Shown here piece after piece: positions 17,800 to 51,236 of a stretch of DNA of 64,000 nt. The notes beneath the pieces are model-generated. The model was given only the letters and a program-made list of their open reading frames with translations. It ran no database searches and was not told the origin of the DNA. The translations under genes were made by a program, and so were the position numbers. The DNA lies in the NCBI RefSeq assembly GCF_000092405.1, contig NC_014220.1, forward strand, positions 1,364,001-1,428,000. The letters run 5' to 3'. The stretch is from Syntrophothermus lipocalidus DSM 12680 (GTDB lineage: Bacteria > Bacillota > Syntrophomonadia > Syntrophomonadales > Syntrophothermaceae). Every line of letters starts with the position of its first letter. The first letter of the stretch is position 1.

Positions 17800-18097
17800 A
17801 TAAATCCACTCCTTTCATCCCATTTGGTCTGTATATCGTACCAATCATTTTTTGCGATTTCAACATAGAAGTGAACCACTCCGCTTATCAAGACTGAGCC
17901 ACTTTTGCTCATGGACCTGTTGCCAAACTCCCTGAATTGTAGGATTCTTGCGGTTAATGTAGAACATCACACCCTAAAACCAAAACATGGCGTGATTCAA
18001 AAGACCAGCGGCTCAGCAAGAGATGGACGAGTCGCACTGCCCCCGAGGCATCGCTGGATTTGGCAACAGGTCCATTGACAATGACACGAGTATCCTG
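17800..18097. other. Intergenic, nothing recognised
   Basis: About 300 bases downstream of the glycosidase-like gene and upstream of the acyltransferase fragment. Short frames only, no hairpin with T-run, and no repeat that I could identify. Confidence 0.3.
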
Positions 18098-24500: not shown

Positions 24501-27500
24501 TCAATCCCACTATGGTTCGATTGGATCCAAACCCAGCATTCTCCAGCCACTCCCGGACGGGGTCGTTTCAATCCCACTATGGTTCGATTGGATCATGAAA
24601 ACTATAAAGCTGGTATGATAGGCTCTCAACAATGTTTCAATCCCACTATGGTTCGATTGGATCCATATTCGTGCCCCCAGTCTAGGTCGCTAGGACGGTA
24701 CCATGTTTCAATCCCACTATGGTTCGATTGGATCCTCGATATAACTAGACAAAAAGCTAAGCCCCAAGTCGGTTTCAATCCCACTATGGTTCGATTGGAT
24801 CCCCGGCCTGTGTGGCACAGATTCCCTGGCAGGGCTCGTTTCAATCCCACTATGGTTCGATTGGATCAAATTCTTTCGGGATACCCTAATTCCCAGTCTG
24901 GACCGTTTCAATCCCACTATGGTTCGATTGGATCCCAGGCGCAACCTGGGGGTTCCCAAGGCGGTCAGCAGTTTCAATCCCACTATGGTTCGATTGGATC
25001 CGTCGTCCACCTTGACCACGCAGCGAGGCTTGCCGTGTTTCAATCCCACTATGGTTCGATTGGATCGTAGTTAAGGCCGACATCAATGCCGACCTGACCC
25101 GTTTCAATCCCACTATGGTTCGATTGGATCGCCCGGCAGGTAGACATCTACCTGTTTCCCCTCCTGCGCGGCGTTTCAATCCCACTATGGTTCGATTGGA
25201 TCGTCCGGCTCGGAGGAGAACCGGACTACATACATCCACGTTTCAATCCCACTATGGTTCGATTGGATCTTTGTACTGTGCAACTATTTTCTTATATGCC
25301 AGGTAGGTTTCAATCCCACTATGGTTCGATTGGATCGCAACACCAGCCCATCTTGCACCCGAACCAAGTCAAAGTTTCAATCCCACTATGGTTCGATTGG
25401 ATCTGCAACAATCCCTGCTACTTCTTCAGCACTTAAGTTTAGTTTCAATCCCACTATGGTTCGATTGGATCCTCTGCCTGAAACAAGCGAGAAGGTAGCT
25501 GCTTACGGGTTTCAATCCCACTATGGTTCGATTGGATCATAAATATATAAAAAGGAATGTATCTAGCTAGGTTAGTTTCAATCCCACTATGGTTCGATTG
25601 GATCCGAACACATAAAGCCCCAGAGCCGTTAAAACAGCCAGTTTCAATCCCACTATGGTTCGATTGGATCATGGAGCATGTCCAGCGCTGGATTTATGAG
25701 AAAGCAGTTTCAATCCCACTATGGTTCGATTGGATCCTTCCCACTGGGACTATTCTCTTGAAAAAAAGATAGTTTCAATCCCACTATGGTTCGATTGGAT
25801 CCGAACACCGGATAAGGGATCTCCTGAGTTTGTTTTAGTTTCAATCCCACTATGGTTCGATTGGATCCAGGTAACACTGGCCACGGGCCGGCAACCTTTC
25901 CCCAGTTTCAATCCCACTATGGTTCGATTGGATCTCATAGGTTTTACGGCCGTTTTCATACAGCGCTCCGGTTTCAATCCCACTATGGTTCGATTGGATC
26001 CACAAAAGAAACTGCGTCAAAGAGCTTCTGTCTGAAGGTTTCAATCCCACTATGGTTCGATTGGATCTTAGTTTATGGGCTTTACATTCTGGACAGTTGA
26101 ATGTTTCAATCCCACTATGGTTCGATTGGATCTTTGCCGCGGGGGAGGGCGGGCTGGTAAGGCACACTCGTTTCAATCCCACTATGGTTCGATTGGATCC
26201 CAGGGCCAGCTCGTTCCAGCGCAGGAAGTAGCGCGTTTCAATCCCACTATGGTTCGATTGGATCCTTGTTGACTAGAGCCTGCACGTCGTCCACCGCTGG
26301 TTTCAATCCCACTATGGTTCGATTGGATCGCCCTGGGCCGTCCTCGGGTCGCCGTCGGACAGGACCGTTTCAATCCCACTATGGTTCGATTGGATCCCCC
26401 TGGAACTCCTTCGCCAGTTTCATGGTATTCTCCGTTTCAATCCCACTATGGTTCGATTGGATCGCTTTCAGAGCCGCGATGATGGCCTTGACGTTGCGGT
26501 TTCAATCCCACTATGGTTCGATTGGATCCCCCTGGCGGCACAGACCGCCACCCTGGTGGAAGCGAAGTTCGTTTCAATCCCACTATGGTTCGATTGGATC
26601 GCCGGGGCCATGGTCTGCCTGAACGCCAGCGGCTACGGTTTCAATCCCACTATGGTTCGATTGGATCATACGAGAAAGCAAGGAAGTTACCTTGCTTGCC
26701 GCGTTTCAATCCCACTATGGTTCGATTGGATCACGTCCTCCTTGACGAGGACATACTTCTATACAGTCCAGAGGTTTCAATCCCACTATGGTTCGATTGG
26801 ATCCCAGAATTGAATCCCTCAGTAAGCAAAAAGAACAGCCGTTTCAATCCCACTATGGTTCGATTGGATCCCGGCTTCGATGTGGCGGAAGTCCGCTATC
26901 TTGAAGGTTTCAATCCCACTATGGTTCGATTGGATCATGACAGCTGGTGCCGTCCCAGCGACCTGGACTGGAAGTTTCAATCCCACTATGGTTCGATTGG
27001 ATCAAATTCGTCCCAGCAAAAAAAAAGAACGCCGAAAATGTTTCAATCCCACTATGGTTCGATTGGATCCTTTCCTGAGCTGGTTTAGGAAGGGTGAAGC
27101 AGGCGGTTTCAATCCCACTATGGTTCGATTGGATCGATGAATTTCAGACCAATTTATGTTTGCTTGGACAAAGTTTCAATCCCACTATGGTTCGATTGGA
27201 TCCCAAGAAGGGCAGGGGCAGTCATACATGCGAGGTGTGGTTTCAATCCCACTATGGTTCGATTGGATCTCCGCCGCAGTATTTTACTTTCCCACCACTG
27301 CCATGTTTCAATCCCACTATGGTTCGATTGGATCGAAGACATGAAAAGAGAAGCGGTGCAAATAGCAGCTAGTTTCAATCCCACTATGGTTCGATTGGAT
27401 CTATCTAGTAGACACATACTATCAAATCCAAGATTACGTTTCAATCCCACTATGGTTCGATTGGATCGCAGTACCACGCGCACGATTAATTTCCATTGTG

Positions 27501-30500
27501 CCGTGTTTCAATCCCACTATGGTTCGATTGGATCCGTATCCACTTCTGTAGAGGAGGCGACTTTTGATGCGTTTCAATCCCACTATGGTTCGATTGGATC
27601 CGATATATTGATGAAGGTAAAGCGCAACTAGTTAAGTTTCAATCCCACTATGGTTCGATTGGATCACACTTACTACCGTCTTTTTCGTGATCCTCGCTTC
27701 CGTTTCAATCCCACTATGGTTCGATTGGATCCAAAGATGGAGCTTCCCAGTATTCTTTGACCACAGCGGTTTCAATCCCACTATGGTTCGATTGGATCAG
27801 CGGTGAACCGCGAAATTAGATACAGTATCGACTGTTTCAATCCCACTATGGTTCGATTGGATCTTGGAAGATAGGCCAGTACTACAGAGGACTGGTTGAG
27901 TTTCAATCCCACTATGGTTCGATTGGATCGCAGAATGGCACTGTATGACGCTTACAGTGCCGTATGTTTCAATCCCACTATGGTTCGATTGGATCGCGCC
28001 GCGCTTCTGATATCATAATAACACGCCGCGTGTTTCAATCCCACTATGGTTCGATTGGATCTTACCAATTTCTGGTTGGCATGATTCTTGCTACTAACGT
28101 TTCAATCCCACTATGGTTCGATTGGATCTTGATCGGGTGTGCCTCCGGGCGTTGCTTTGTACGTTTCAATCCCACTATGGTTCGATTGGATCTATTGTGG
28201 CAGGAGTGGGCTATAAATGACTTTACAGGTTTCAATCCCACTATGGTTCGATTGGATCGGAGTTGCCAGCGGAGAAACAAGGCAAACTCCATCGAGTGTT
28301 TCAATCCCACTATGGTTCGATTGGATCGAGTATAGATATTTTTGATGCGATTGTCGACTTCTAGTTTCAATCCCACTATGGTTCGATTGGATCTCCGTCC
28401 ATTCCCTATCCCAGCATGGTGGCGACGTGTTTCAATCCCACTATGGTTCGATTGGATCGCAGGGCGGCAGTAGCGGTCACTCCCTGATTGTGGGTTTCAA
28501 TCCCACTATGGTTCGATTGGATCTTTCGTGCGGCTAATGCCCATTTTTGGTAATCACCAGGTTTCAATCCCACTATGGTTCGATTGGATCCTGAAAGAGG
28601 GGAGGAAGCTCCCCCAAATAACAAAAGTTTCAATCCCACTATGGTTCGATTGGATCCTGGCGTCCTCTTCATCTGTGAAGATGAGTAGCTCAGTTTCAAT
28701 CCCACTATGGTTCGATTGGATCCCTTGCCGGGGGCTTAAAGCCCCTCACGCATACACGGTTTCAATCCCACTATGGTTCGATTGGATCTTCCCACTCTCT
28801 CAGCCCAGGTAAATAGGAATTCACGTTTCAATCCCACTATGGTTCGATTGGATCCTGAAGCTGGGAAATTCTACCTTCTGGATGGTTTTCTGTTTCAATC
28901 CCACTATGGTTCGATTGGATCTTTGATGCAATAGACGACACCCTTTCCTTCTTGTGCGTTTCAATCCCACTATGGTTCGATTGGATCCCACGAGCACACG
29001 CACGAAGTCGGAGCTAGGACGTTAGTTTCAATCCCACTATGGTTCGATTGGATCTCGATATCCGCAACTACGGGCTCATTCTTCTTATGGTTTCAATCCC
29101 ACTATGGTTCGATTGGATCGTCGAGGAAAGTGAAATTAGAAATCGAAATTGACGAGTTTCAATCCCACTATGGTTCGATTGGATCCTGCTGAGATACCCA
29201 GAGCTATTGCCAGGTGAGTCTTGCGTTTCAATCCCACTATGGTTCGATTGGATCCCAAAAGAGCCGTGGTCATTTTTTCATCACCGAAGATTGTTTCAAT
29301 CCCACTATGGTTCGATTGGATCCAAGAAGCATAACCGAGCTATATTGGGATGCCCGTTAGTTTCAATCCCACTATGGTTCGATTGGATCCCTCATACCCG
29401 CATAGGCGGAAGCATTCGCATACCCAGTTTCAATCCCACTATGGTTCGATTGGATCTTATTTGCTAGCAGGAAAGGAGGGAAACCAATCACAGTTTCAAT
29501 CCCACTATGGTTCGATTGGATCCTCATCTCCTCGCTCGCTCCCGTGACCTTTTTAATGGTTTCAATCCCACTATGGTTCGATTGGATCTATTCCTTCGCC
29601 GCCGGATTACAGAGACTATGCTTAGTTTCAATCCCACTATGGTTCGATTGGATCCTGCGCTTTTTGCTTACACGATTATGAATGTGAACCGTTTCAATCC
29701 CACTATGGTTCGATTGGATCTGCGAAAGGGAGGACTAAAGGTGGAAGTCAGACTTCGTTTCAATCCCACTATGGTTCGATTGGATCCAAGAAGTTCCGGG
29801 AGGTGCTATGAATGGGCGAAGAAGTTTCAATCCCACTATGGTTCGATTGGATCTCTTTCGGCCAACTGTGTAACTTCGGAGAAAATATGTTTCAATCCCA
29901 CTATGGTTCGATTGGATCACTCATACGCGGTCCTCATGGATGACGACCTGCGAGGTTTCAATCCCACTATGGTTCGATTGGATCTCTGTTGGGCCTTATC
30001 TTTACTTCATATCCGATGAGTTTCAATCCCACTATGGTTCGATTGGATCACCTCGTTCACATACCCTTTGATGTGTACCCGGCAGTTTCAATCCCACTAT
30101 GGTTCGATTGGATCGGCTGTAATCTTTGTTTGGCCTGGTCATAATCCTCCGTTTCAATCCCACTATGGTTCGATTGGATCCCATTAGCCCCGCAAATCCC
30201 TTTGGTTTTTCCTCAAGTTTCAATCCCACTATGGTTCGATTGGATCATGGCAATCCTAGCTTATTCGGCGTACAGAGCAGAAGTTTCAATCCCACTATGG
30301 TTCGATTGGATCTTAAAGGGGGTCGCGATGCTTCTCCTGTCGTGCTCGTTTCAATCCCACTATGGTTCGATTGGATCAAAAAGACGGCTACTGCCTTGAG
30401 TGTTATATAGAGTGTTTCAATCCCACTATGGTTCGATTGGATCTCTGGCTATGGGGGAACGTCCTGGGCCCGAATAGCAGTTTCAATCCCACTATGGTTC

Positions 30501-31709
30501 GATTGGATCCTTGTTCGAACACCTCCTGGATGGTCTTTTTGGTGTGGTTTCAATCCCACTATGGTTCGATTGGATCAAAAGCCAACCTTGAGTTCGTAAA
30601 GATACTGAAGCTCGTTTCAATCCCACTATGGTTCGATTGGATCCCGGGCAACTGCTGTTTTTAGATTGTCGTATACGAGTTTCAATCCCACTATGGTTCG
30701 ATTGGATCGCTTCCTGTTCTTTGCGGTTCTTCCCCTGCAACACCGTTTCAATCCCACTATGGTTCGATTGGATCGCCCAATACAATCCACAGCAGTTTCT
30801 CCCTGTGCTGGGTTTCAATCCCACTATGGTTCGATTGGATCGCCGTAGAATAAGCGATATTCTAAAACTGCAAGTCAGTTTCAATCCCACTATGGTTCGA
30901 TTGGATCAAAAATGCAGAGGTTGAGAGGGAAGCCGAAAAGACAGTTTCAATCCCACTATGGTTCGATTGGATCTTCTACAGTTTGCTCGATATGCAGACG
31001 ATCATAAAAGTTTCAATCCCACTATGGTTCGATTGGATCCCCCTCCTCTCCTCTCCTCCTGCTCACTCGCTCGAGGTTTCAATCCCACTATGGTTCGATT
31101 GGATCCCCCTCCTCTCCTCTCCTCCTGTCCATTCGAGATAGGTTTCAATCCCACTATGGTTCGATTGGATCTGGCTATCAGGTTTATTACCGATGTATGC
31201 GAAAGGGGTTTCAATCCCACTATGGTTCGATTGGATCTAAACTAAGCGAACAAAGCACGTTAAGCCAATCAGAGTTTCAATCCCACTATGGTTCGATTGG
31301 ATCCTGGCAGCCTACTATGCCGGATTTGACAGCATTAGAAGTTTCAATCCCACTATGGTTCGATTGGATCCTCCTAACCTAGGCCAGAGAGAGGAGACTG
31401 AAAGAGGTTTCAATCCCACTATGGTTCGATTGGATCTAAGATCCGTTACCATGGTCCACGGTGCCGGTCTCCGGTTTCAATCCCACTATGGTTCGATTGG
31501 ATCCATCAAGTCACACGAGCCGGGCTTGCTCTGTTGCGCGTCCTTGGTTTCAATCCCACTATGGTTCGATTGGATCTGCCCAGGCTTTAATTCGGAGGTG
31601 GGAAGAAACAAAGTTTCAATCCCACTATGGTTCGATTGGATCAGAATCAAATTCTCAGGTCAAAAAGTCTGTGTCATTTGTTTCAATCCCACTATGGTTC
31701 GATTGGATC
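21583..31709 (-). CRISPR. CRISPR array, 153 repeats and 152 spacers
   Basis: A 30-bp repeat (plus strand begins GTTTCAATCC and ends TTCGATTGGATC) recurs 153 times by direct count, with spacers of mostly 35-38 bases (range 32 to 42). On the minus strand the repeat ends in ATTGAAAC, the standard 5' handle of Cas6-processed crRNAs. Together with the leader at 31710 and the decayed repeat at 21517, this fixes transcription on the minus strand. Only one internal variant was noticed (GTTTCAGTCC at 21717, third from the old end). The array is adjacent to cas6 of the type I-B operon and probably also serves the type III-B operon, which has no array or Cas6 of its own. New spacers enter at the 31709 side. 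Confidence 0.98.
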
Positions 31710-31926
31710 CAAGCCAAAAACCCGCATTTTTTAAGCGTTGCTCCGATTGTTCCTGCAGTCGATCCCCGATCACCGGTTTGTGCCAGGAGATCGACTGCAC
31801 ATGTCAAAGGCCAAATTTACCATGTCTACGGCACTTTCACGTTAGGCAACTTTAAGTCTCACCTTCGTTTGCCTCAAAGCATGTTCGATCGACTGCAATT
31901 ATACCACATCTCCACATACGATTTAA
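31710..31926 (-). promoter_or_regulatory. CRISPR leader with pre-crRNA promoter
   Basis: The leader lies between the newest repeat and cas6. On the minus strand it has a -10 TATAAT (31898-31903) and a -35 TTAAAT (31921-31926) with 17-base spacing, the -35 overlapping the cas6 stop codon. The motif GATCGACTGC occurs in direct orientation at 31789-31798 and 31887-31896, and inverted (GCAGTCGATC) at 31755-31764. These may be binding sites for adaptation or regulatory proteins. The promoter is closely similar to that of the type III operon at 50438-50476. Confidence 0.7.
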
Positions 31927-38896: not shown

Positions 38897-40615
38897 TTAA
38901 AAAGTTTCGATTTCCCTTACCTCATCGGCACCGAATTCCGGATATTCATCTTCGGGCAGTTCCACCCGACCTACATCAAAAAGAAACGCCAAAAGATAAT
39001 CCCGCAAAAGCCACATAGCCCGTTGGTCCTGAAGCGGAGCCAAAAATACATAGTCTTCGAAACCGACAGCGCCATGCCGAACAGCGTTGAGGTATACACC
39101 TCGAATCCGCTCGGCATAACGTGCACTCGTAAGCTCTTTGGTCCAACGCTGCAGGTTCGGCAGGTTATTCGTCAAGCGGCGCCCGATTTCTTGGATGCGG
39201 CGCAACGTTTCGTCAGGACTAGCTTCCGCCTTATCGAAAGTACTTCTGGGGAACTCCTTTCCTTCCTGCTGGCAGTGCTGCCACTCGTAGACCACTGCCA
39301 GGAGGACGTCGCGAATCTCGCCCGCAACCTTATGGGCATTCGGCGGAAGCAAGAAATAGAATTCCTGGTGACTCAACCAGCCTTTTCTAACGTAACCCAG
39401 TAGTAAGCCGTACAGTTGATGATACTGCGCCGTCACCAGTTCCGTTACAAGTTTCTTCGCGTCCTCACTAGCAGCAATACTGATACCCAGCCGTTCTAGG
39501 ATTGCCAGTTTTTCGGGTGCCATTCCTCTCACCTCTTGTAGATACAGCCGGTGTCCCAACCAGCCTCCCTGCAAATTAGGCGGATCGCTGGTCAAGCACA
39601 TCCCGACAATATTCTCGCCCGCAATCATGCGGTTAGAAATGCTCCGTACGAACCCTGCACGGGTTTTCCTTTCATCCTCCCTCAAATCTCCGCGTACCTT
39701 CAGCAGCCCCTCCCAGAAGTCCTTAAAAGCATTCTTTGACTCAATCTGGAGCTTAGCAAGAAAGGCGAGGAGTTCGTTAGGAACATGAATAGCCTGGACA
39801 AAGCCCCCGCGGTTGTCGTTGGAAAAAACATAGGCGGTCGAGGGTAATCCGCTTCGGTATATCGCGCGTAACTGATCCGGGAAACTGTTCAGCAGTTCGC
39901 AGAAAAGATAAACCACTGTTCCTGCTTCGCCAGCCGTCTCCCACGAACCATAGAAATCCAGGGCTTTATTGCCTGTTATGAGTCGGTCAAAATGCTCCCA
40001 CCCATACCTGCGGGCAACGGTAGCCGCTAAGCCTAGGTGCTGAGAGTGTAAAAACCAGAGCCGGTTTTGGTTGCCTGCCAGCATAGTTGACAACGGCAGA
40101 AACCGCACAGCCAGAGAGCACAAACCGCATACGCGAACCCCATGTGAGAAGCCCGGGTAAAAGTTGACTATTCCCTCGAACAACGGCATCTTGTCTTTGC
40201 GCCGCGTTTCCATGGCGATCTTCGGGCGCCGCTCACCGCAAGCAAAGCAAGTCTCACCTGCCTCCTCAAGCTCCAGGCACTGCTTCGCTTTGTTCAGCTC
40301 TGATCGTAAAGCATCCTGGAATTTGCGTCGCGCGTTATCTTCCTTTTCCTTCGGTGTTCGACCCTTCCAGTTCGAGGGGTTGTCGAGCTCGCTGTTCGGA
40401 AACACCTGCCGCAGCGCTTTCTTAGGACCGGAAAACGCCTTATCCACACCAATCCCCAGTGCCTGGTCGCTGAGCAAGACTCGCTCCAACTCCTTTACGG
40501 CTTGCTCGATATGCTCGGCCCCCAACTCTTCCAGCGTGCTGACCCTCGCCGCTGCTGCCAACGCCGCTAACCCGGCATCTACAAAAGGGTTTCCTGTCCA
40601 GTGTACATGTGGCAT
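38897..40615 (-). CDS. Cas8 (Cst1-like CXXC-CXXC large subunit, type I-B)
   Basis: 572 residues from the ATG at 40615 (MPHVHWTGNPFVDAGLAALA), with GGAGGTG eleven bases upstream. The frame continues 20 codons further but without a site. Two CxxC pairs (ETCFACGERRP near 128 and VCGLCSLAVRF near 170) define the Cst1/Cas8 zinc-containing family. It is the large Cascade subunit that recognises the PAM. It is first in the I-B operon, with a 240-base leader. A second copy of its first 27 codons survives at 50654-50734. Confidence 0.9.
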   Translation of the reverse strand: MPHVHWTGNPFVDAGLAALAAAARVSTLEELGAEHIEQAVKELERVLLSDQALGIGVDKAFSGPKKALRQVFPNSELDNPSNWKGRTPKEKEDNARRKFQDALRSELNKAKQCLELEEAGETCFACGERRPKIAMETRRKDKMPLFEGIVNFYPGFSHGVRVCGLCSLAVRFLPLSTMLAGNQNRLWFLHSQHLGLAATVARRYGWEHFDRLITGNKALDFYGSWETAGEAGTVVYLFCELLNSFPDQLRAIYRSGLPSTAYVFSNDNRGGFVQAIHVPNELLAFLAKLQIESKNAFKDFWEGLLKVRGDLREDERKTRAGFVRSISNRMIAGENIVGMCLTSDPPNLQGGWLGHRLYLQEVRGMAPEKLAILERLGISIAASEDAKKLVTELVTAQYHQLYGLLLGYVRKGWLSHQEFYFLLPPNAHKVAGEIRDVLLAVVYEWQHCQQEGKEFPRSTFDKAEASPDETLRRIQEIGRRLTNNLPNLQRWTKELTSARYAERIRGVYLNAVRHGAVGFEDYVFLAPLQDQRAMWLLRDYLLAFLFDVGRVELPEDEYPEFGADEVREIETF

Positions 40616-40711
40616 AAATTCAACTTCACCTCCCTTTCCCTGTTCAACCCCTTTCGGCATGTACTCGGACTGCACCTCTCGAATTAAAGATTCTCGTCCG
40701 TGAAGTTCTAC

Positions 40712-40955: not shown

Positions 40956-42698
40956 CTATCCGTAAAAGCCAAGGAGACCAAATTTTACAGCAGTTGCCAG
41001 TCCCACTATGACAACCAATACGATGAAAATAAGCAATTTTTGCTTGCCTCTGAAACTCAACCAAGTAACAGCTAGCATAAAAACTGAAAACGCTAAGACC
41101 AGCAATATCTGGTCTATGCCTACAGCAGCTGCTAAGGTGCCAAGAGCAGTAAGCACTGCCATCTGTATCTCTCGTCTTCGCTCCATGATGGTGTTCACCG
41201 TGTTCTGGACAAGATTGAGCTGGGCGTCCAGTTCCGCAGCTTCCTCACTAATGTAGAGCGCCTGTTGCATCATCTTGTACATCTCGATTCCCTGTTCCTG
41301 AGCCGTTACTTCGAAGTTCATAATCCGTGCTTTAAAAGAATTGTATCTTTCCTGTAAGCTGATCAAGTCATCCACGTTATACTTGAAAACGTTAAAGTCT
41401 TCTCCGGTTGTTTCTAGTAAATTGTGCGAAATATTCGAAGTTTCATTATTAAACTGAACGAAGAAAACTCGCTGAGCCAGCACTAACATGAGCATTTGGG
41501 TGTAGAGGGTAAGCATGTGAGCAGTTATCACATTCTTGCTGAAATCGTCGTCTTGTTTCGTGATGCAAACAAAACCCTGGTGGGTTATCCCGTACAAGGT
41601 GCCTTCTTCCACCCACCTCGAGTAACAATGCCGTTTGATTAAGTCACGTCTCATGATTCTGTCGGCGCAACTCGGGCTTTTCGTGTCAACGAACATAAAT
41701 TGGTACAGCTTCAGGCTGTTTTCGGCGAAAACGTCGTCTTCGTAAAAGTACCTGTTCTCCGAAGCAAGCCACTCTCTCATCGTTTCAGCGAGCTGGTTAT
41801 CCCTTACCACCGAAATCACAAACATACGGTCATCTATTATAGGCTCTATGTAGATCGTCTTTTCTCCTTCTCCTCGTTTCCGTGCATGGCAAAACCTTCC
41901 AAAGAAAGTCCTCTTTCGCAAAGCCTTAGACGAGTTCCTCTGCTTTTGGAAGGAAAAATTCCCCCCCAGTGTTTCCATAACAATTTTTGATATGTAATTG
42001 AGGTGCTGTTCGGGGTTACTCACAACAACCTTAAAATCCTCACAGATTTCTTTCCCGTCTATAACCAGGGTTAACCGGTCGGCGAGCTCAGGGCAACTAT
42101 CACCTGCCTCTAAAGAAATAAACGGTGGACATACTCTCCTCCCGTATTGGTTTATGGCCAGGACGTCGTCAAAGTTCGGGGTTCGTTTCACCTCGTTATT
42201 GACCATCTTATCACCGTAATACTCCGCCTGAAACAGTAGAATAGCCACGCCGGTATTGTAGACTTTGAGGTTGATGGAATTGACGTGGAGTAAATATTCA
42301 ATATTTTCTTTATTATCTTTATTATCTTTCTTAATCAGAATATGCGAATCACACCCGCTTTCAAAACGCCGCAAGTAATTGTGCACTATCTCCTTGCCGT
42401 CTCCCTCGCCGTAGATGGCTATCCTGGCAGAAGCGTGAAAGTATTTGTATTCGTTGTAAGCGAGCAGTATTCTTTGATTGTCGTCCAAATCGGTATCAGA
42501 TAGCCTGAATCGATAGTTTTGGGCGATGTATCTCACCAGGCTCGGGTCATCTTTTGAGCAAGCCCACTTACCGTCTTGCAAGCACTCGTAGAACAAGTCC
42601 ATATCGTGCTTTCCTTCATTGTGTTCCCACCTGAAAGGGAACAAAAATGTATGATAGCTGTATGGCGACGCGCCTTTACAGTTCCTAGAGCATTCCAT
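40956..42698 (-). CDS. CorA-like membrane protein of the type III-B locus
   Basis: 580 residues from an ATG with GGAGG upstream, overlapping the exonuclease stop. The first 440 residues are soluble and have no family I can name (motif SYHTFLFPFRWEHN at the front). Residues about 440-520 form long helices (LISLQERYNSFKARIMNFEV, ALYISEEAAELDAQLNLVQN). Two or three transmembrane helices close the protein (AVLTALGTLAAAVG, ILLVLAFSVFMLAVTWLSF, LLIFIVLVVIVGLATAV). This architecture, a big cytoplasmic part, a stalk helix and terminal membrane helices, is that of CorA-family channels, including the CRISPR-associated CorA effectors of type III-B systems. The classical GMN motif is not seen. It is the last gene of the cmr operon. 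Confidence 0.5.
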   Translation of the reverse strand: MECSRNCKGASPYSYHTFLFPFRWEHNEGKHDMDLFYECLQDGKWACSKDDPSLVRYIAQNYRFRLSDTDLDDNQRILLAYNEYKYFHASARIAIYGEGDGKEIVHNYLRRFESGCDSHILIKKDNKDNKENIEYLLHVNSINLKVYNTGVAILLFQAEYYGDKMVNNEVKRTPNFDDVLAINQYGRRVCPPFISLEAGDSCPELADRLTLVIDGKEICEDFKVVVSNPEQHLNYISKIVMETLGGNFSFQKQRNSSKALRKRTFFGRFCHARKRGEGEKTIYIEPIIDDRMFVISVVRDNQLAETMREWLASENRYFYEDDVFAENSLKLYQFMFVDTKSPSCADRIMRRDLIKRHCYSRWVEEGTLYGITHQGFVCITKQDDDFSKNVITAHMLTLYTQMLMLVLAQRVFFVQFNNETSNISHNLLETTGEDFNVFKYNVDDLISLQERYNSFKARIMNFEVTAQEQGIEMYKMMQQALYISEEAAELDAQLNLVQNTVNTIMERRREIQMAVLTALGTLAAAVGIDQILLVLAFSVFMLAVTWLSFRGKQKLLIFIVLVVIVGLATAVKFGLLGFYG

Positions 42699-43203
42699 TT
42701 ACGACCAACCTCCAGCACTTAGCTGCCAACCGTGCGTCATCTAAGGGGTTATGCCTTGTAAATGCCTCACCGGAGACCAGCGCCCCCCGGTCGATAAGCG
42801 GGTCAATCCCCTTGACATAAAGCGCGGTGCTTAAGTCGAGCAAAGGGTAAGGTCCTTGGAAGCGTCTTTCCTGTTCGTTTTTCAGCACGCATTTCTTGAA
42901 CAGCGACATTTCAACGGGATAAGCCACGTCTGCTATGCAGAGGCAGCCTTCCCGATGCGTAATCCAGAAACCCCAAAATGCATCTAGTAATTCACTTTCG
43001 GACTCATACCGGGGCGCAATCTGCTTCATGTGAGGCAAAACGTTTTGTTTTACCCACTCCTCGGTCATTATGTAGTTGTCTAGGTCTACAGCACCTTGGA
43101 AAGTTCCAAGCTCAGTCCACCCATCGTCGTAAACGACTGCCCCGACCGCGATCACAGGACCGTATAGCCCGTCTGTCTCCGCGTCTACAAAGAAGTATTT
43201 CAC
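42685..43203 (-). CDS. DEDDh-family 3'-5' exonuclease-like protein
   Basis: 172 residues from the GTG at 43203, nine bases after GGAGG. The DnaQ-type motifs are in order: FVDAETDG (Exo I, Asp and Glu), CIADVAYPVEM (Exo II Asp) and HNPLDDARLAAKC (Exo III, His and Asp five apart). It begins four bases after cmr6 and overlaps the CorA-like gene, so it belongs to the type III operon. In CorA-containing type III loci a phosphodiesterase or nuclease gene normally accompanies CorA and degrades the nucleotide messenger. This protein may fill that place, or act on RNA/DNA directly. Confidence 0.75.
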   Translation of the reverse strand: MKYFFVDAETDGLYGPVIAVGAVVYDDGWTELGTFQGAVDLDNYIMTEEWVKQNVLPHMKQIAPRYESESELLDAFWGFWITHREGCLCIADVAYPVEMSLFKKCVLKNEQERRFQGPYPLLDLSTALYVKGIDPLIDRGALVSGEAFTRHNPLDDARLAAKCWRLVVNGML

Positions 43204-43207
43204 CCGT

Positions 43208-44218
43208 TCAGACCTCCTGGAAATACCCATACCCGATACGGGTCTTGGCGCCTATCCCCATATCTTTTAGGATATTCTTGAACAGACCGAGTTTAATCTC
43301 AGCGCCGACCTTGATATCCCCAAGCGCTGTCTCAGTCAACATGAAACGGAATTCATAATTGACGCCGGGAGCAACTTTCAAAAAGCGGATGGGCGTGGGG
43401 TTTTTGAGGGCCGAATTCTCCTCTATGAAATACCCTCCATCGGGGTTTCTGCCGTCTCTGATGTGGGGAGTCACATAGTCGTCGTAGAACAGTCTCCCAG
43501 CGGAAACACGCCCTCCTCCGATTGGCCATGCATCGAAAAACACATCCCGCGCGGCTAAGGGAAGCTGGGTTCCGCTTACAATCCCTTCGAATATTGCCGT
43601 TTCCAGCTGCTCAATGTCGTCCGTTGCCACCTCAACTCCTACCTTCTTAAGTTGCTCGGCAATATATTCGTGCTTTTGTCTCCTGTACTTCTCGCTTTTA
43701 TTGTGCCCAGCGCCAAAAGCACTCCGGAGCACCCCTTTGACCGATGAACCCGGGATCACCGGAAGGCCCGTTGTGTAATCAAAGTAAAACCCCAGCTTAA
43801 AATCGCTTTCAAGCTCCGCCTTAGAATCGCTTTCAAACCCCGGCTCAGAATCTTTCTTGCTGCTTATACCGTGACTGTACCCGGCCCCTATCAACAAGCC
43901 CGGGTAGGCAGTTTGCAAAACAAAACTGCACATTCTTCTCTGGTTGCTTCTGAATGAGGCCAATTGTCCTTCCGGCGGCAGGTCATCCGCGTTATTATGC
44001 TCCAGAAAAAACCGTACCCGTCGTCCTATCTGGTCCTGGACATAGCGGCTCTTATCCATGAGGAGTTGCGATTCCAACCCTTCGTAAAGACCGCGGTAAT
44101 AATAATATCCGTAGTTCCCCGTCTTAGCCCATACCTTGTACTTGGAGTTCCTGGGTTCAGGTCCCGCGCTGGAATCATATTTCCCTCTTCCCTTCTCCCT
44201 TCCCTCACCCCAGTTCAT
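43208..44218 (-). CDS. cmr6: Cmr6 (type III-B RAMP subunit)
   Basis: 336 residues. Cmr6 features: LIGAGYSHGISS, DYTTGLPVIPGSSVKGVLRSAFG (the GSSxKG RAMP motif), DVFFDAWP, HIRDGRNPDGGYFIEENSALKNPTPIRFLKV, and the C-terminal Gly-rich GIGAKTRIGYGYF. It caps the 3' end of the Cmr filament and binds the spacer part of the crRNA. It begins at the ATGA overlap with cmr5. Confidence 0.93.
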   Translation of the reverse strand: MNWGEGREKGRGKYDSSAGPEPRNSKYKVWAKTGNYGYYYYRGLYEGLESQLLMDKSRYVQDQIGRRVRFFLEHNNADDLPPEGQLASFRSNQRRMCSFVLQTAYPGLLIGAGYSHGISSKKDSEPGFESDSKAELESDFKLGFYFDYTTGLPVIPGSSVKGVLRSAFGAGHNKSEKYRRQKHEYIAEQLKKVGVEVATDDIEQLETAIFEGIVSGTQLPLAARDVFFDAWPIGGGRVSAGRLFYDDYVTPHIRDGRNPDGGYFIEENSALKNPTPIRFLKVAPGVNYEFRFMLTETALGDIKVGAEIKLGLFKNILKDMGIGAKTRIGYGYFQEV

Positions 44219-44637
44219 GATGCCTGCACCCTCCCGTTGTTCTCTTCTTCTCTCGATTCGTTGCTTTCTTCGTCCGGATAGGTACGCATGGCCAGCTTCA
44301 GCGCCACAGCCGCCGCCTCGACCTGCTGCTTCGTGCGGTAGAAACTTGACATATCATTTTCGTAGCTGCTCGCTAGTTGCTTGTACAATTCATGTCCGTC
44401 CTTCGACCCCACGACCTTCGCTATCAAATGAACGATAACGCGCCTATCCCCTTCGCCCTGGCTATTGCCCAAATAGAAGGCAATACAGGGAAGCAAACCC
44501 ATCTGCACGATAGTGGGGCCGAAGGCGGCCATATAGGACTTATATATCTTTTTTACTTTGCCGTTCTCCACAAGTATTTCCCTGACAGCCTTTTCGGCTG
44601 CAGGAATGTACGATTGCACTAGGTGAACGTTATGCAT
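44215..44637 (-). CDS. cmr5: Cmr5 (type III-B small subunit)
   Basis: 140 residues, all helical, with the family segment KIYKSYMAAFGPTIVQMGLLPCIAFY near residue 30 and the second helix bundle around SSFYRTKQQVEAAAVALKLAM. Small subunits line the target-binding groove of the Cmr complex. Overlaps cmr4 by 8 bases and cmr6 by 4. Confidence 0.9.
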   Translation of the reverse strand: MHNVHLVQSYIPAAEKAVREILVENGKVKKIYKSYMAAFGPTIVQMGLLPCIAFYLGNSQGEGDRRVIVHLIAKVVGSKDGHELYKQLASSYENDMSSFYRTKQQVEAAAVALKLAMRTYPDEESNESREEENNGRVQAS

Positions 44638-45478
44638 CTACACCTTCCCCCCCAGTACAGTTTTCTGCGCCGTCTGCCCCCGTTTTTAGCTCCATTATAT
44701 TGGTATAACCGTAACCGACGGTCGCATTTGCACCTATCTGTACCGGCATCTGCTGAACTTTCTTGGCAAAATCCTCGAGAATCGCCTCGTCGCTTTCTTC
44801 GGCGAGAACGGCAAAGAAAAACCTCGACTTATGGGGAACGAACTCTTCGTACCACAAATTCTTGCTTATACCGTTCTCCAAGTGGTTGCGGGCAGCTACC
44901 GGCAGTTCTCTAAAGATTCTGCATTGTTCTTTTTCCAGTATCACTATATCCTCGGTACCAAATAAGCATTTTATCCATGACCGCCCCTTCAGTACCGGCT
45001 GACTGGCGAGTTCGCCTTCGATGTTAATCTTTTGGGACCGCCCGTTATTTTGGGACTTGTCCTTGTTGGCTAGAAAATCCCGCAGGCCCTTTAGACAGGT
45101 GTTGCCCACGGGGTCGGTCGCCCCCTCGAGCCTTTCGTAAAGGTCGACAAACTCCTGCAATACCTCCTTCATAGTAACCAAGATCCACGGTTGTTCCTGG
45201 CAACGTACTGGTCGCCCCAGCATCAGAGCCTGAAGGATTCTAAGCTTACCTTTGGTATTTGGATCCCCAAACATCTCGTCGACCTTATTTTGGGAGCCGG
45301 CATAGACATGCTGCTCAAAGTGTTCCCTCAGCGCTCCTTTAAGGCTGGAAGCGTAGATGACCGGGAATCCGGTCGTTTCGTCCCTCTGCACTTCCAGGTC
45401 GATAGTACCGCCAGACGTGCTCCCGGTCCCCACATGCATGTTTGTCAGGCACTCAATAATGAAAAACTTTTTAAGCAT
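44630..45478 (-). CDS. cmr4: Cmr4 (type III-B backbone, target-RNA cleavage)
   Basis: 282 residues from the ATG at 45478 (GGGGAGAGAGG upstream). FFIIECLTNMHVGTGSTSGG and GFPVIYASSLKGALREHFE are the Cas7-type signature, and GANATVGYGYTNI ends the RAMP fold. Cmr4 carries the Asp that cuts target RNA every six nucleotides. An Asp in GTIDLEVQRDETTG near residue 25-35 is at the expected place. Overlaps the cmr3 stop. Confidence 0.93.
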   Translation of the reverse strand: MLKKFFIIECLTNMHVGTGSTSGGTIDLEVQRDETTGFPVIYASSLKGALREHFEQHVYAGSQNKVDEMFGDPNTKGKLRILQALMLGRPVRCQEQPWILVTMKEVLQEFVDLYERLEGATDPVGNTCLKGLRDFLANKDKSQNNGRSQKINIEGELASQPVLKGRSWIKCLFGTEDIVILEKEQCRIFRELPVAARNHLENGISKNLWYEEFVPHKSRFFFAVLAEESDEAILEDFAKKVQQMPVQIGANATVGYGYTNIMELKTGADGAENCTGGEGVDA

Positions 45479-46718
45479 AACCTCTCTCCCCACCTATCAC
45501 GATTTTCCTGTTGTAGCCCAATCTCTGCATAACGCAATTATCAAGCTCTTTCCCACTAACTCCTTCTTTAGGATAAATCACCGTTCCTCGCTTGAGAAGC
45601 CGATAAGCAACAGTACTGCGGTCCCACAGACTTTTAACCGCCTTACCGGCTTTTACTCTGGACTGAGCCTGAGAAATATCGATCGAAAAAGGCCTGAAGT
45701 CAACAGTCTCATACACTGCGTACTCAGCTATCTGGTTCAAGACTTCGTTTGACACTAGAGTGTCGGAGATCAACACTATTCTGGATTGGTCAGAGGCATC
45801 GAGGACTCGCGCGTAATATTCACGCTCGATCTCGGGGTAACAACATTCCTTGTCCTCCGTTACCTCGACCGCGAAAAGGCCTCCTCTCCCTCCTAACATC
45901 ACCTCAAAATTGGCAGAACCTCCTTTGCAGTTGATCTCGATTCCGTCCCTCAACTTGACAAAGACTGCGAACCTGTCGGGGAATCCACCTTCGTCCCGGC
46001 GGAAATTGTGGTCAGATCCAACCTCTCGGCAACCGCCTTGAGTCCCCCATGAGTTCTGCTTGCGGAAGGATATGTAGGTCTGCTTGTAAAACTTTTTTTC
46101 CTCTTGCTGTCCTGTTACTTTTTTAAGCTGTTCAGGAATCTCAATCCCAACTCTTGTACACTGAACAAATATCTTGTCGTCACTCAACAACTCTCCGGTT
46201 GAGACGTTCATCCACCCGTGGAATAACCCTTTCTTCGCGTTATACTCTTTCAAGAACCCTATGCTCCCGAAATTGCCCCTAGCTATTTTGCTGTCCAAGC
46301 ACACATAAGACATCGGCGTGTACTTCGTGTCGTTCTCTCCCAGATGGTCGAGAGGAACCGGCAACCAGTAAACATCATCCATGTTTAACAAAAGAGGCGA
46401 GATTTCTTCAACTGCTCCGAAAAACCTGCTTTCACCTTCCTCTTCCGCATTAATCATTCCGCTCCCGGCTATGGAGCTTATTTTTTCCCACTCCTCGTCC
46501 GAATACCTCCAATCGGTCTTGACTTCTACGCCTTGGCTTTTTAATAGAATATACTTCACCACGCCGAGCAGGGTCGTTTGTTGCGGAATGAGATTTGACT
46601 TCACAAAGTAATTCAAGTTCCCTGGGTAGTCGACAGCATCTGGCCCATATCTGAATCCCCGCTCTCCCCCAAAAAACCAAGGTTGCAGTGGATAAAACCT
46701 AAATATATACTCAGGCAT
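45471..46718 (-). CDS. cmr3: Cmr3 (type III-B Cas5-like subunit)
   Basis: 415 residues from the ATG at 46718, nine bases after GGAGGAGG. The frame extends 31 codons further into cas10. Its opening IFRFYPLQPWFFGGERGF and PQQTTLLGVVKYILLK are typical of Cmr3, which holds the crRNA 5' handle next to Cas10. C-terminal GGRGGLFAVEVTE and related glycine loops are present. Confidence 0.88.
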   Translation of the reverse strand: MPEYIFRFYPLQPWFFGGERGFRYGPDAVDYPGNLNYFVKSNLIPQQTTLLGVVKYILLKSQGVEVKTDWRYSDEEWEKISSIAGSGMINAEEEGESRFFGAVEEISPLLLNMDDVYWLPVPLDHLGENDTKYTPMSYVCLDSKIARGNFGSIGFLKEYNAKKGLFHGWMNVSTGELLSDDKIFVQCTRVGIEIPEQLKKVTGQQEEKKFYKQTYISFRKQNSWGTQGGCREVGSDHNFRRDEGGFPDRFAVFVKLRDGIEINCKGGSANFEVMLGGRGGLFAVEVTEDKECCYPEIEREYYARVLDASDQSRIVLISDTLVSNEVLNQIAEYAVYETVDFRPFSIDISQAQSRVKAGKAVKSLWDRSTVAYRLLKRGTVIYPKEGVSGKELDNCVMQRLGYNRKIVIGGERGYA

Positions 46719-48285
46719 CCTGAGTCGCCTCCTCCCATTCCCCCATAAACCTTGCGAAGCTAAGCACCGCCTCTGTTGTTTCCAGAGCTTCATGCGGAGA
46801 AGAAAACTCATCGAGGTTTTTTCCCAAGATATCTTGAACCAGTTTCAAAGTAGCTCCATGTCCTTCGAACTCCTGGCTAAACCACCAGGATAAGCGGGAG
46901 CTTCGTTCTTCTCTGCTGTTGCTAGCGAGAATCTGCAAAAGCACAGCTCTCCGCTGTCTTAGTTTTCTCTCTACCGATCGCAGAAAATCGACATTTTCTT
47001 CGGTCAGCGGATTGCACAGAGTCTCTATTAGGTCTAAGAGTAACGTGTTATTCATTGTAAGCAACAGCTGTGCGGACTGACCGCTATGAACCGTCAGGCT
47101 TATTCCTAGAGCATTCTTTGTCTTGTAACGCTTTGCTTTATCGAGCTGAGCTTTAGCTATTTCTAAGGCCTCGTAAAGCGGATATTTATGATAGGCAACC
47201 GCCAACCCAAAAGATAGGGAAAATCTGTCTCCAAGCCTCTTCTTGAATTCTTCGTCAAGTGTTCGCAGCATATTTAAGATGAGTACAGGGTGGCCACCAT
47301 CGCACCACCCCATAAGGGGAGCAAAAAACATCAAATCGTCTCCTCCGGCATAAACGGGAAAGGCTCCGTACTGTGTCATAATTCCTACCGCTGAATCGGC
47401 GTACTCCAGAAGCGTTCGTGACGTGTTGCTGATTTCACCTATGTCTGCCAGACTCGTAATATGCCCACCTATACCGTCGCCGTCTGCCTGCACCAACGCA
47501 TAGTAATTCGCAAATTTGGGCATACGGGGTTTGGGATCTTTTGTATTTGTATTTGTGATTGTACAAAAATCCGAATTAGGACTCTGGCCGGCGTACAGCT
47601 TCTGTACGACAACCTCGAGAATGCTTTTGCCATCTTTTTCTTTTCTTCTTGTTGTTTCTGTCTTAGCGATGTCAGTAAGGGAGGGAAAAACAAATTTGCC
47701 AACCCCAAAAGCTCCTGCAAACATACGGGATTTTTTCACGGTTTCGTTATTCAAAAACCGGGCCATAAGGTGCGGAGACTCATTCTTGAAAACGTAAGGA
47801 GGCCGGAGCTCCGCAGCATCCAACAGCTTGTTCAACACTTTTAAAACAGGCTCACCGTACAAACAACTGTCGTCTATGGCTACGTAGTACACCTGCAAAT
47901 ACTGACGCAAAAAACCCCGCACCTCTTCCTTGAGCAACTGGTCGCTGTGAGTTTTCGAGCGCAGACTGTTCCAAATATCGTCAACAATTTCTTCTACCGC
48001 CTCGTTCTTAACCCTCTCCAACATCTCGAAGAATCCGTCGGCTTCCGGATCTCCATCGTATGCGAAATATATTCGGTCGGAGAAAGCCCCCACCCGCTTA
48101 TTAATCCTGTTTGCTTCAGGATTAGGAGAAAATACGCTGACGCGAGGGAACTCCCGCAACCTTTGCACCAGGCAGTGGGATATATAGGAAAACAAGTAGC
48201 TCGCTGCCCACAGACCACCGGTATCCCGGGCAAGAGACATGGTCCCGTAAATCGGCCCAATGGTGATTCCAAAAAACCAAGTCAT
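46711..48285 (-). CDS. cmr2: Cas10/Cmr2 without HD domain
   Basis: 525 residues from the ATG at 48285 (MTWFFGITIGPIYGTMSLAR), which lies just past the preceding gene's stop. A 95-codon upstream extension overlaps that gene and is not protein-like. The first residues are the usual Cas10 start of a cyclase-like domain, so there is no N-terminal HD nuclease. The catalytic palm has YYALVQADGDGIGG near 261-274 and the YAGGDDLMFF box at 312-321 with GGDD intact, so cyclic or linear nucleotide messenger synthesis should be possible. It is shorter than the usual 700-1000 residues. The loss of HD with GGDD retained is the pattern seen in signalling-only type III-B complexes. Confidence 0.92.
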   Translation of the reverse strand: MTWFFGITIGPIYGTMSLARDTGGLWAASYLFSYISHCLVQRLREFPRVSVFSPNPEANRINKRVGAFSDRIYFAYDGDPEADGFFEMLERVKNEAVEEIVDDIWNSLRSKTHSDQLLKEEVRGFLRQYLQVYYVAIDDSCLYGEPVLKVLNKLLDAAELRPPYVFKNESPHLMARFLNNETVKKSRMFAGAFGVGKFVFPSLTDIAKTETTRRKEKDGKSILEVVVQKLYAGQSPNSDFCTITNTNTKDPKPRMPKFANYYALVQADGDGIGGHITSLADIGEISNTSRTLLEYADSAVGIMTQYGAFPVYAGGDDLMFFAPLMGWCDGGHPVLILNMLRTLDEEFKKRLGDRFSLSFGLAVAYHKYPLYEALEIAKAQLDKAKRYKTKNALGISLTVHSGQSAQLLLTMNNTLLLDLIETLCNPLTEENVDFLRSVERKLRQRRAVLLQILASNSREERSSRLSWWFSQEFEGHGATLKLVQDILGKNLDEFSSPHEALETTEAVLSFARFMGEWEEATQDA

Positions 48286-48286
48286 C

Positions 48287-49549
48287 TTACACACTCTCTC
48301 CCTTAACAAAAGTAACTTTAAGCAAATCCCCAAGCGCGTCCTTATACTTTCGCACTGAAACCGAACCAACACTTTTCCTTCGGCTTTCGATTTCGCTGGC
48401 AAACGAACGGAGCAAATCGTCAAGGCCGAATTCGCTCTTCGAGGGGGTCTTAATTCCTCTTCTTTCGTCGCCTCCTTCGGAATCGCGAGATGCTTCTCTG
48501 GTAAATGCGAATTCGCGCTCGTACATGGCCTCAGGAATCTTCTCAGCGATGAAATACGCAGTGTTACCAAGGATTTTAATAGTGATGGGGCTTTTGAAGC
48601 GTTCTACTTCGTCCGATTGGTCATATATTCGCACTTTAATCTCATCGCTCTTCTGTTTACCCGTACGGAAAACAATGAAAGGCGCAACGCCGAGCATCCC
48701 CCGCACGTACCGGAAATCGCTGTAAGGCGAATTTTGCTTTCTTCCAGAAAGTTTTCTTAGTTCCTCTGGCGTTAATATGTGCTTCTTAATAAACGCCTTT
48801 TCGCTGCCTATCCCCTTCTTTGCCATATATTTCTTCAGGAAGAATGATGGTTCGTACCGCTCTTTGCCTTCTTTTTTATCGATTCCGAGGTTAATCCCCG
48901 ATTTCAGTACTTGGTAGAAAGTATAAGCGTGCTCCATTATTCGTGTATTGTCCTTCGGGTTATTTCGAAATTGAAACTCTATGTAAGTCCTGCCTTTAAG
49001 CAGAGCCTTACTCGTTCCGTTTACCGGTGTATCATCGATACTTCTTGCCGAGAATGACCCGAAACCTTTGCTGCTGCGGGTGCCAAAATTGGTGACGGCG
49101 AAGAAGGCAGGGATGTGTTTTTTGATAATGTCCAGCAAACCGGGGTGAAAACTGAAAAGGTCCACAACGATATATTCATAAGTTACCAGCTTGACATGCT
49201 CGTACTTTTTCTTGTCTTCATCTATAGCGGGGGCATAGTAAGATGATACAGTGGGGTTATATCTAGTTTTGCCGCTCTTATCCGTTCTTTCGTGCAACGG
49301 AGGTTTTTCTGTTGAGTTTCCCACAAAATAAATACGCATCTTGTAATCGAGCGCCTTATGTTGCCTGTCGACAAAATAATCCTCAATGAATTTTCCGCTT
49401 TCGTTTCTGAATTCCGACCCGAAATTCATAACCAGGTACCTGTCCAGCTTGGTCTTCACCTCGCTGGCCCGCAGGCAGGCCCCCGGCTGATCGCCCTGAA
49501 AGTGTATGATAGGTGTATGCTGTTGAAGACGTATTTGCACTTTGTACAA
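48287..49549 (-). CDS. Cmr1-type RAMP protein
   Basis: 420 residues from the TTG at 49549, seven bases after GGAGG. A GTG six codons earlier is possible. The RAMP nature is shown by LRASEVKTKLDRYLVMNFG near the front and NFGTRSSKGFGSFSAR near residue 165. By position, first cmr gene followed by cas10, it should be Cmr1. The opening HTPIIHFQGDQPGACLRASE differs from classical Cmr1, so it belongs to a divergent branch. The stop lies just before the cas10 start. Confidence 0.7.
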   Translation of the reverse strand: MYKVQIRLQQHTPIIHFQGDQPGACLRASEVKTKLDRYLVMNFGSEFRNESGKFIEDYFVDRQHKALDYKMRIYFVGNSTEKPPLHERTDKSGKTRYNPTVSSYYAPAIDEDKKKYEHVKLVTYEYIVVDLFSFHPGLLDIIKKHIPAFFAVTNFGTRSSKGFGSFSARSIDDTPVNGTSKALLKGRTYIEFQFRNNPKDNTRIMEHAYTFYQVLKSGINLGIDKKEGKERYEPSFFLKKYMAKKGIGSEKAFIKKHILTPEELRKLSGRKQNSPYSDFRYVRGMLGVAPFIVFRTGKQKSDEIKVRIYDQSDEVERFKSPITIKILGNTAYFIAEKIPEAMYEREFAFTREASRDSEGGDERRGIKTPSKSEFGLDDLLRSFASEIESRRKSVGSVSVRKYKDALGDLLKVTFVKGESV

Positions 49550-49594: not shown

Positions 49595-50260
49595 TTATTC
49601 TTTCTTTTCCCCGATTGCCTTTACGACTGCAACGGTGTGACTTGAACCTGATACTACGAGTATTCGTCCCCCGGCAACATCAATAGTGAACTCTTTTAAA
49701 CCGCCGTCCTTCGACACCCCATAGCGACCCACAATCTCTTCGTCCAGCAACACGTCGAAGCTCCCCTCAGAGTAGTAAGCGTCGTCAGGCACCCCGACCG
49801 CGAGTTTCACCGTTTTAAAATTGCCATCCAGGTTCCACCGCACGGGAGGATTATAGTATTCGGCGATATATCCCGAATTGTAACTTACACCGCTAATCAC
49901 TACCCCGGTCGCTCTTTTTCCCGTAAAGGGGCGCAAATCTTCGAAAAGGTCTACCGTATTGTCTCCCTCATTGTCCTGCGCCAACCCCTTGCTTTTGGGT
50001 TCCTTCGAGTCCCCAGCTTCGTTGGAAACATCCCTTGAAACGGTGGCCGGTGTGTTATGCTTTTTCGATTCTACGCTATCGCTCTTGCCGTTGCTGCTGG
50101 GAAGCTCCCCATTGTCAGCGACACCGGTAGTCATCGTTTCAGTTGCAAACCGCTGCTCGAATCTCATGCCCAAAGCAAAACCAACCCCGAGCACTATGAT
50201 GAGAGCCAACATTCCCAAAAAAATTCTGTAAGTTGTAAGGCCTTTACTCGATTCGCTCAC
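49595..50260 (-). CDS. Membrane-anchored NPCBM-like protein heading the cmr operon
   Basis: About 221 residues from the GTG at 50260 (GGGGG eight bases upstream). An ATG nine codons earlier lacks a site. One transmembrane helix (YRIFLGMLALIIVLGVGFALGM) is followed by a long Ser/Asn/Lys-rich linker and a C-terminal beta-sandwich. That domain (YNPPVRWNLDGNFKTVKLAV, GSFDVLLDEEIVGRYGVSKD, FTIDVAGGRILVVSG) looks like NPCBM, a carbohydrate-binding-like module usually found outside the cell. It ends 45 bases before the cmr1-like gene and sits behind the shared promoter, so it is the first gene of the type III transcript. It is not a known Cas protein. Its role is unknown. Confidence 0.65.
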   Translation of the reverse strand: MSESSKGLTTYRIFLGMLALIIVLGVGFALGMRFEQRFATETMTTGVADNGELPSSNGKSDSVESKKHNTPATVSRDVSNEAGDSKEPKSKGLAQDNEGDNTVDLFEDLRPFTGKRATGVVISGVSYNSGYIAEYYNPPVRWNLDGNFKTVKLAVGVPDDAYYSEGSFDVLLDEEIVGRYGVSKDGGLKEFTIDVAGGRILVVSGSSHTVAVVKAIGEKKE

Positions 50261-50437: not shown

Positions 50438-50476
50438 ATCAACTGCAATTATGCCATGTATCCTCATTCCTCTTAA
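50438..50476 (-). promoter_or_regulatory. Promoter of the type III-B operon
   Basis: On the minus strand TTAAGA (50471-50476), 17 bases, CATAAT (50448-50453), then TGCAGTTGAT. Compared with the CRISPR leader promoter (TTAAAT, 17 bases, TATAAT, TGCAGTCGAT), 29 of 39 aligned bases agree, including an unbroken ATAATTGCAGT. A 5' untranslated region of about 180 bases would follow. Confidence 0.65.
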
Positions 50477-50504: not shown

Positions 50505-50734
50505 TTACACCTGGAATTTCTTTTCAATATCCTGTTGCCCAGCTTCGGCTGCTGTCCGGACATAGACGGCTCCTTCTTTTACCCTCCACTCCACCTCAGC
50601 TTCCCAAGCCTTGCCCACGAGCTTGATCAGGTTGCTAGCCAGCCAATCCTTCCAGCGCTGACCCCTGCCGCTGCTCCCAATGCCGTCAATCCGGCATCCA
50701 TAGGAGGGTTGCCTGTCCAGTGTACATGTGGCAT
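50505..50734 (-). pseudogene. Mosaic scar: cas8 start fused to stalk-domain tail
   Basis: From the ATG at 50734 the frame reads MPHVHWTGNPPMDAGLTALG, then AAAGVS, matching the first 27 residues of the cas8 at 38897-40615 at all but five positions. Similarity ends near 50654 and a TGA follows. From about 50630 to the TAA at 50505 another minus-strand frame reads LVGKAWEAEVEWRVKEGAVY, which matches the C-terminus of the glycosidase/stalk protein at 18098. Upstream of the ATG, GAATTAAAGATTCT and TCACCTCCCT are shared with the cas8 leader, so a whole promoter-proximal region was duplicated before the deletion. Confidence 0.75.
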
Positions 50735-51236
50735 AAAGTTGGCCTCACCTCCCTATTTGATCCTGTTTATCCTCCGGCTATGTTTTTTGAATTAAAGATT
50801 CTTGTAATAGGGCATCGTTTAGCCACGGCCCAGCTTCGGAAGGGTCCTACGCTATGTATTGTCACAAAAAGGAGAAACACATTCGATTGTAATTTCTCCC
50901 TCACCCTTCTCGATTCCTTCCAAAATTTGTCGTCAAATTTCGACAAATTACGACCTAATGTGACTCTGGTGAAGCCGGTAACCATCGAATTTTAGGAGTT
51001 CCGTGCGAGGGGGTTACGGCCTGGGACCGGCTCTTTGAGTTTTTGACATTTCTTTCCCTAAATTGCTAAACTGTTGTTGGATGCTGACGAGTCCGATCCA
51101 TGTAGGAGGATGCACGTTGGCCATGCTTAATTTTCACGTGCATCTCGTTGGGAGAGCTTAGGTTCATCGGAATCGATTACTGGTGTCTGCCATCACTGAG
51201 CTTTCGCTTGATTCCCGAAAAGAAAGGAGCAATGCG
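50735..51236. other. Intergenic stretch at the edge of the CRISPR island
   Basis: The first 70 bases repeat parts of the cas8 leader. The rest, to 51236, shows only short frames without good starts. TTTGTCGTCAAATTTCGACAAATT near 50927-50950 contains a short inverted repeat. No RNA gene was recognised. Confidence 0.35.

Follow-up and report, generated by a model that had tools for sequence, protein, structure and literature searches.

The question raised by this locus is whether a gene whose product is a membrane-anchored protein with a carbohydrate-binding-type domain, and which directly precedes the cmr genes of a type III CRISPR system in the window (the whole stretch of 64,000 nucleotides of Syntrophothermus lipocalidus DSM 12680 DNA that was analysed), takes part in immunity or is only carried along with the immune genes. 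We consider it fairly probable that the gene codes for a lineage-specific envelope protein, which was put behind a CRISPR-type promoter by rearrangement and is co-transcribed with the cmr genes, and that it does not represent a type III accessory family. The gene (49595..50260, minus strand) is an intact reading frame of 221 amino acids from a GTG start at 50260 or of 230 amino acids from an ATG start at 50287, of which the GTG is the one with the better-placed ribosome-binding sequence (AAAGGGGG, at a distance of 8 nt). Its stop at 49595 lies 45 nt ahead of cmr1, in agreement with the distance given in an earlier note on this DNA. This gap follows from the cmr1 start being set at TTG 49549, which is preceded by GAGGAGG and, upon alignment, coincides with the beginning of two related Cmr1 proteins. 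The GC content of the gene (0.503) and its third-position GC content (0.554) were within the range of the adjoining genes, so that its composition bears no foreign mark.

The architecture of the product that had been proposed in the earlier note, namely one membrane helix, a long disordered linker, and an NPCBM-like sandwich, was recovered in full. The sole strongly hydrophobic segment found by hydropathy analysis (residues 22-41 of the 230-amino acid reading; 50165..50224, minus strand; peak Kyte-Doolittle value of 2.65) is probably a signal anchor with the N-terminus inside. Further on, a low-complexity linker of 66 residues (residues 47-112; 49952..50149, minus strand) consists for 77% of S, T, G, P, N, Q, D, E, K, and R, with 14% of hydrophobic residues. 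The last 118 residues (49598..49951, minus strand) make up a beta-sandwich domain of the NPCBM/CBM51 type. Its match with the Pfam family NPCBM (PF08305; E = 5e-4, 20.5 bits) was under the curated cut-off of 23.9 bits; all 19 homologues in the domain alignment matched PF08305 with an E value of at most 0.01 (best 5e-12). Structure prediction of the domain by AlphaFold with this 19-sequence alignment yielded a pLDDT of 95.4 and a pTM of 0.87, superseding an earlier run with five sequences (pLDDT 73). The predicted structure is a jelly-roll beta sandwich as in solved CBM51 modules, and its best Foldseek matches were CBM51 modules as well (PDB 2vmg, E = 6e-6, query-normalised TM 0.69; PDB 7jrl, E = 2e-6). 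Similarly, CBM51 modules came first in a profile search of PDB sequences (E = 9e-10 and 4e-7). The matches across the 19-member alignment, the AlphaFold model, and the top positions of CBM51 in the Foldseek and profile searches make the predicted NPCBM assignment firm. The full-length protein gave only chance matches with PDB by sequence and no match in PADLOC, NCBIfam, or Pfam; as the earlier note had held, it thus falls outside the Cas and type III accessory families described in PADLOC and NCBIfam. Known CBM51/NPCBM modules (PDB 2vmg, 7jrl, and 7js4), which it resembles in fold and profile match, are parts of large glycosidases and peptidases, whereas the window protein has no catalytic domain and is a putative sugar binder. 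The domain probably binds a glycan or a wall polymer.

Direct searches with the protein retrieved only the protein itself among 60 relatives of the order, and none in the GTDB contig scan, IMG/VR, plasmids, and phages. The nearest homologue (L073 in genome G192; 36% identity, E = 1e-14) possesses a secretion signal, a stalk domain (Cu_amine_oxidN1), and an NPCBM domain, and no cas gene occurs within approximately 9 kb on either side of it. This protein and a second secreted stalk-NPCBM protein of the Firmicutes (L004 in genome G028) resemble the window protein in their homologous C-terminal NPCBM domain, their length (about 220-270 amino acids), and their N-terminal hydrophobic export segment, but they carry a stalk between export signal and NPCBM domain, where the window protein has a disordered linker, and they do not adjoin CRISPR genes. 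In the other homologues in the phylum, the NPCBM domain is joined to stalk, PilO-like, coiled-coil, or VanZ-like N-termini, the PilO and VanZ labels being our own reading of the sequences. The N-termini of the related proteins inspected were mostly of the secretory or membrane-anchor type, which, together with the short N-terminus of the window protein, suggests that its NPCBM domain sits outside the cell. The reverse orientation would place the NPCBM fold in the cytoplasm, where it might sense a nucleotide like the soluble domain of Csx23. The charges flanking the helix (+2/-1 on the N side versus +2/-2 on the C side) indicate the orientation only weakly and leave the topology unsettled, and the protein contains no cysteines; nevertheless, the prevailing N-termini of the relatives and a fold that matches sugar-binding modules, not nucleotide sensors, render this reversal extremely improbable. 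Csx23 and Cam1, two small membrane accessories of type III loci, also combine a membrane helix with a soluble domain, which in their case binds cA4 (PMC11229360), but the soluble domain of the window protein is a secreted-type sugar-binding fold that has no match in PADLOC.

On the same strand, the NPCBM gene is followed by a known CorA/DEDD type III-B system (PMC10600005, PMC11229360). It comprises cmr1 (48287..49549; PADLOC Cmr1, E = 3e-83), cmr2 (cas10), cmr3, cmr4, cmr5, and cmr6 (43208..48570), a gene for a DEDD-type exonuclease of the kind accompanying CorA (42685..43230; weak Pfam Rv2179c-like match, E = 0.003), and a gene for a CorA-type membrane effector (40956..42698; PADLOC CorA, E = 3e-144), all on the minus strand. 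Homologues of the DEDD protein were found in five CorA/cmr loci (L051, L052, L057, L060, and L069). The window thus contains the gene set described for such systems, namely cmr1-6, CorA, and a SAM-AMP-degrading enzyme, be it NrN, DEDD, or a lyase (PMC10600005), and its cmr1-6, DEDD, and CorA genes form a standard example; the system of B. fragilis has been reconstituted in laboratory E. coli (PMC10600005). It differs in the NPCBM gene, which is neither described for these systems (PMC10600005, PMC11229360) nor found in related loci, and in the position of CorA, which usually stands ahead of cmr1 but comes after DEDD in the window. The earlier statement that the cmr genes lie between two genes for membrane proteins therefore holds for the window, but the arrangement is not conserved; likewise, a membrane effector is present on the other side of the cmr genes, but type I-B cas genes come after CorA on the same strand, so that CorA is not clearly the end of the operon.

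A consensus scan of the minus strand, which is weak evidence for promoters and terminators alike, revealed promoter-like sites only at 50913-50886, 50527-50498, and 50476-50448, and neither a promoter-like nor a terminator-like site from 49400 to about 50448. No riboswitch or other RNA family was found in the upstream region. The site closest to the gene (50438..50476, minus strand; TTAAGA-17-CATAAT plus TTGCAGTTGAT) resembles the promoter-like site of the CRISPR leader (31888..31926, minus strand; TTAAAT-17-TATAATTGCAGTCGAT), the array of which lies at 21583-31709. The exact sequence ATAATTGCAGTYGAT occurs at two sites only in the 2.4-Mb genome (31888-31903 and 50438-50453, both on the minus strand), and a local alignment of the leader with the upstream region scored 21, a match reached by none of 300 shuffles (mean 10.2, maximum 18). 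Against the whole window, the same match had a BLAST E value of only 0.17, so that it carries weight only insofar as the leader is a reasonable region to compare with. This leader-like site accounts for the wording of the earlier note, which had placed the gene behind a promoter shared with the CRISPR leader: the resemblance in sequence stands, but the two sites are not one physical promoter. As the 45-nt gap, the common strand, the scan result between the two genes, and the leader-like promoter ahead suggest, the NPCBM gene is probably transcribed first, together with the cmr genes, from this promoter. Alternatively, it may have a transcript of its own and be a chance neighbour of cmr1, which would then be transcribed from its own promoter. 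Such independence would suit the separate ribosome-binding site of cmr1 and the cmr operons elsewhere that have no NPCBM gene, but it is quite improbable in view of the short gap and of a minus strand with neither a promoter-like nor a terminator-like site in the scanned interval.

The functional membership in the type III system that the earlier note had implied was not supported by gene contexts elsewhere, and the refuting condition named in that note, namely homologues in unrelated contexts only, turned out against it. When genome contigs were scanned with an alignment of Cmr1 proteins, 23 loci were found, 22 of which also encoded CorA. According to our reading of the gene tables, CorA stands ahead of cmr1 on the same strand in 18 of these 23 loci, with one small ORF between the two genes in L049, L050, L055, L060, and L065; in the remaining loci, CorA comes after the cmr genes (L051, L053, and L057), is divergent (L056), or is missing (L059). 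The order cmr1-6, DEDD, CorA in L057 is that of the window, and there a cas6-like gene, not an NPCBM gene, precedes cmr1. With a profile from the NPCBM alignment, an NPCBM domain was found in none of the 32 loci (0.51 Mb) fetched from the Cmr1 or CorA searches, a set that takes in regions retrieved by searching the phylum for CorA, in some of which the CorA or Cmr matches were only distant. Most matches of this phylum-wide search were weak and confined to the C-terminal portion of the profile, as expected of ordinary CorA transporters. Conversely, none of the 21 neighbourhoods of NPCBM homologues (0.38 Mb) contained a relative of the Cmr, CorA, DEDD, or type I-B Cas proteins of the window at E ≤ 1e-3, a screen that distant Cas proteins could escape because the queries were single sequences. 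Among the homologues recognisable by sequence, which these tests covered, no recurrent neighbourhood with cas10/cmr in independent lineages was thus found; the related domains occurred in secreted stalk, PilO-like, or coiled-coil proteins with no Cmr or Cas relative nearby where checked. A search of the literature on NPCBM domains with CRISPR found nothing related.

These results bear on three ways in which the gene might serve defence. Firstly, it may be a locus-specific accessory of the CorA/SAM-AMP system that is co-expressed from the operon promoter and either influences how CorA assembles or shields or closes the envelope upon opening of CorA. Its first position behind the leader-like promoter would fit such a role, and a membrane protein in the slot before cmr1 is common, given that this slot is taken elsewhere by CorA (18 of the 23 loci) or by unrelated small membrane proteins (L049, L050, L055, L059, and L065). 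However, a homologue is present in none of the 32 fetched loci, the small proteins before cmr1 have no sequence or beta domain in common with it, and its own domain is probably extracellular, apart from SAM-AMP and Cmr, which makes this role unlikely. Secondly, it may be a newly recruited envelope-side component of SAM-AMP type III immunity, extracytoplasmic and glycan-binding, that tunes or limits the membrane damage by CorA or hinders phage adsorption, which we regard as rather unlikely; if the gene were part of immunity, this would be, as far as we know, the first case of a type III CRISPR system with an extracytoplasmic protein of the sugar-binding type. Thirdly, it may be a separate surface defence gene, for instance for a glycan-binding protein masking a phage receptor, that is merely co-expressed with the CRISPR genes. 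Defence genes cluster, and some members of the NPCBM/CBM51 family bind sugars, as seen in solved complexes (2vmg with methyl-galactose and 7jrl with GlcNAc), but PADLOC gave no match and the homologues have housekeeping genes or a TnpB-like gene as neighbours instead of known defence genes, so that this function is very doubtful.

The region upstream of the promoter-like site points to a simpler origin. Window positions 50505-50760 and 50910-50945 represent a scar left by rearrangement of a second type I-B cas operon. In minus-strand order, it comprises a 36-bp segment (50910..50945) that is 97% identical to a stretch (G000:C1:1613724-1613759) in the leader 5' of a second cas3 gene, 200 kb away in the genome. 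Then follow the 5' end of a second cas8 gene (MPHVHWTGNPPMDAG...; 50643..50754), which is 82% identical to 40522-40635, at the 5' end of the cas8 gene at 38897-40675, and the 3'-terminal part of a gene with a stalk domain (Cu_amine_oxidN1; 50528..50620), which is 87% identical to 18091-18183, where a NAGPA and stalk gene (18098-19597) has its 3' end. The cas8 and stalk remnants are in different reading frames. The possibility of a complete, internally deleted cas8 was ruled out, as the 3' half is stalk domain. In this one genome, the scar arose by recombination of cas and envelope genes, and the mosaic that it forms from pieces of a cas3 leader, of cas8, and of a stalk gene is the mark of repeated rearrangement. 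Recombined cas and envelope pieces are the simplest source for an envelope gene in the slot before cmr1. In the preferred scenario of an envelope gene carried along by rearrangement, the product would consist of a short N-terminal stretch, a single helix serving as signal anchor, a flexible linker, and an NPCBM/CBM51 domain outside the cytoplasm. Rearrangement would have inserted its gene between a CRISPR-type promoter and cmr1 and would also have left the truncated cas8 and the end of the envelope stalk gene directly upstream; the gene would probably be the first of the cmr operon and co-transcribed, with no necessary part in Cmr/SAM-AMP immunity. The status of a rider is most likely because the relatives are ordinary secreted surface proteins that were never found beside CRISPR genes. 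Against it, an intact gene that immediately follows a promoter seemingly dedicated to CRISPR functions would equally be expected of a working accessory, and in a single genome a passenger is indistinguishable from a very young accessory. The locus therefore urges caution with guilt by association, as even the first gene of a cas operon behind a CRISPR-type promoter may be a rider of rearrangement. In addition, the scar and the leader-like promoter reveal duplication and cutting of cas cassettes in this genome.

Further observations concern the same genes and their relatives. The CRISPR array at 21583-31709 contains 153 repeats of 30 nt, almost all of them identical, and its leader-distal end has a degenerate repeat. 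In genome G192, the gene of the nearest stalk-NPCBM homologue is immediately followed, in the same orientation, by a TnpB-like gene (L073:55-1335). Several Firmicutes genomes encode PilO-like (type IV pilus) proteins in which an NPCBM domain forms the C-terminal part (L090, L093, L095, and L097). The short ORFs directly before cmr1 in several Bacteroidota Cmr loci (L049:2428-2703, L050:9751-10014, L055:4144-4719, L065:9513-9983, and L059:1701-2255) code for membrane proteins of 87-191 amino acids with one or two helices, followed by a charged or coiled region; they gave no convincing Pfam match where tested and are unrelated to the window protein, and were rejected as analogues of the NPCBM gene for want of a common sequence or beta domain. 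Lastly, a Lachnospiraceae locus encodes a 711-amino acid protein between cmr6 and DEDD/CorA (L051:6237-8372).
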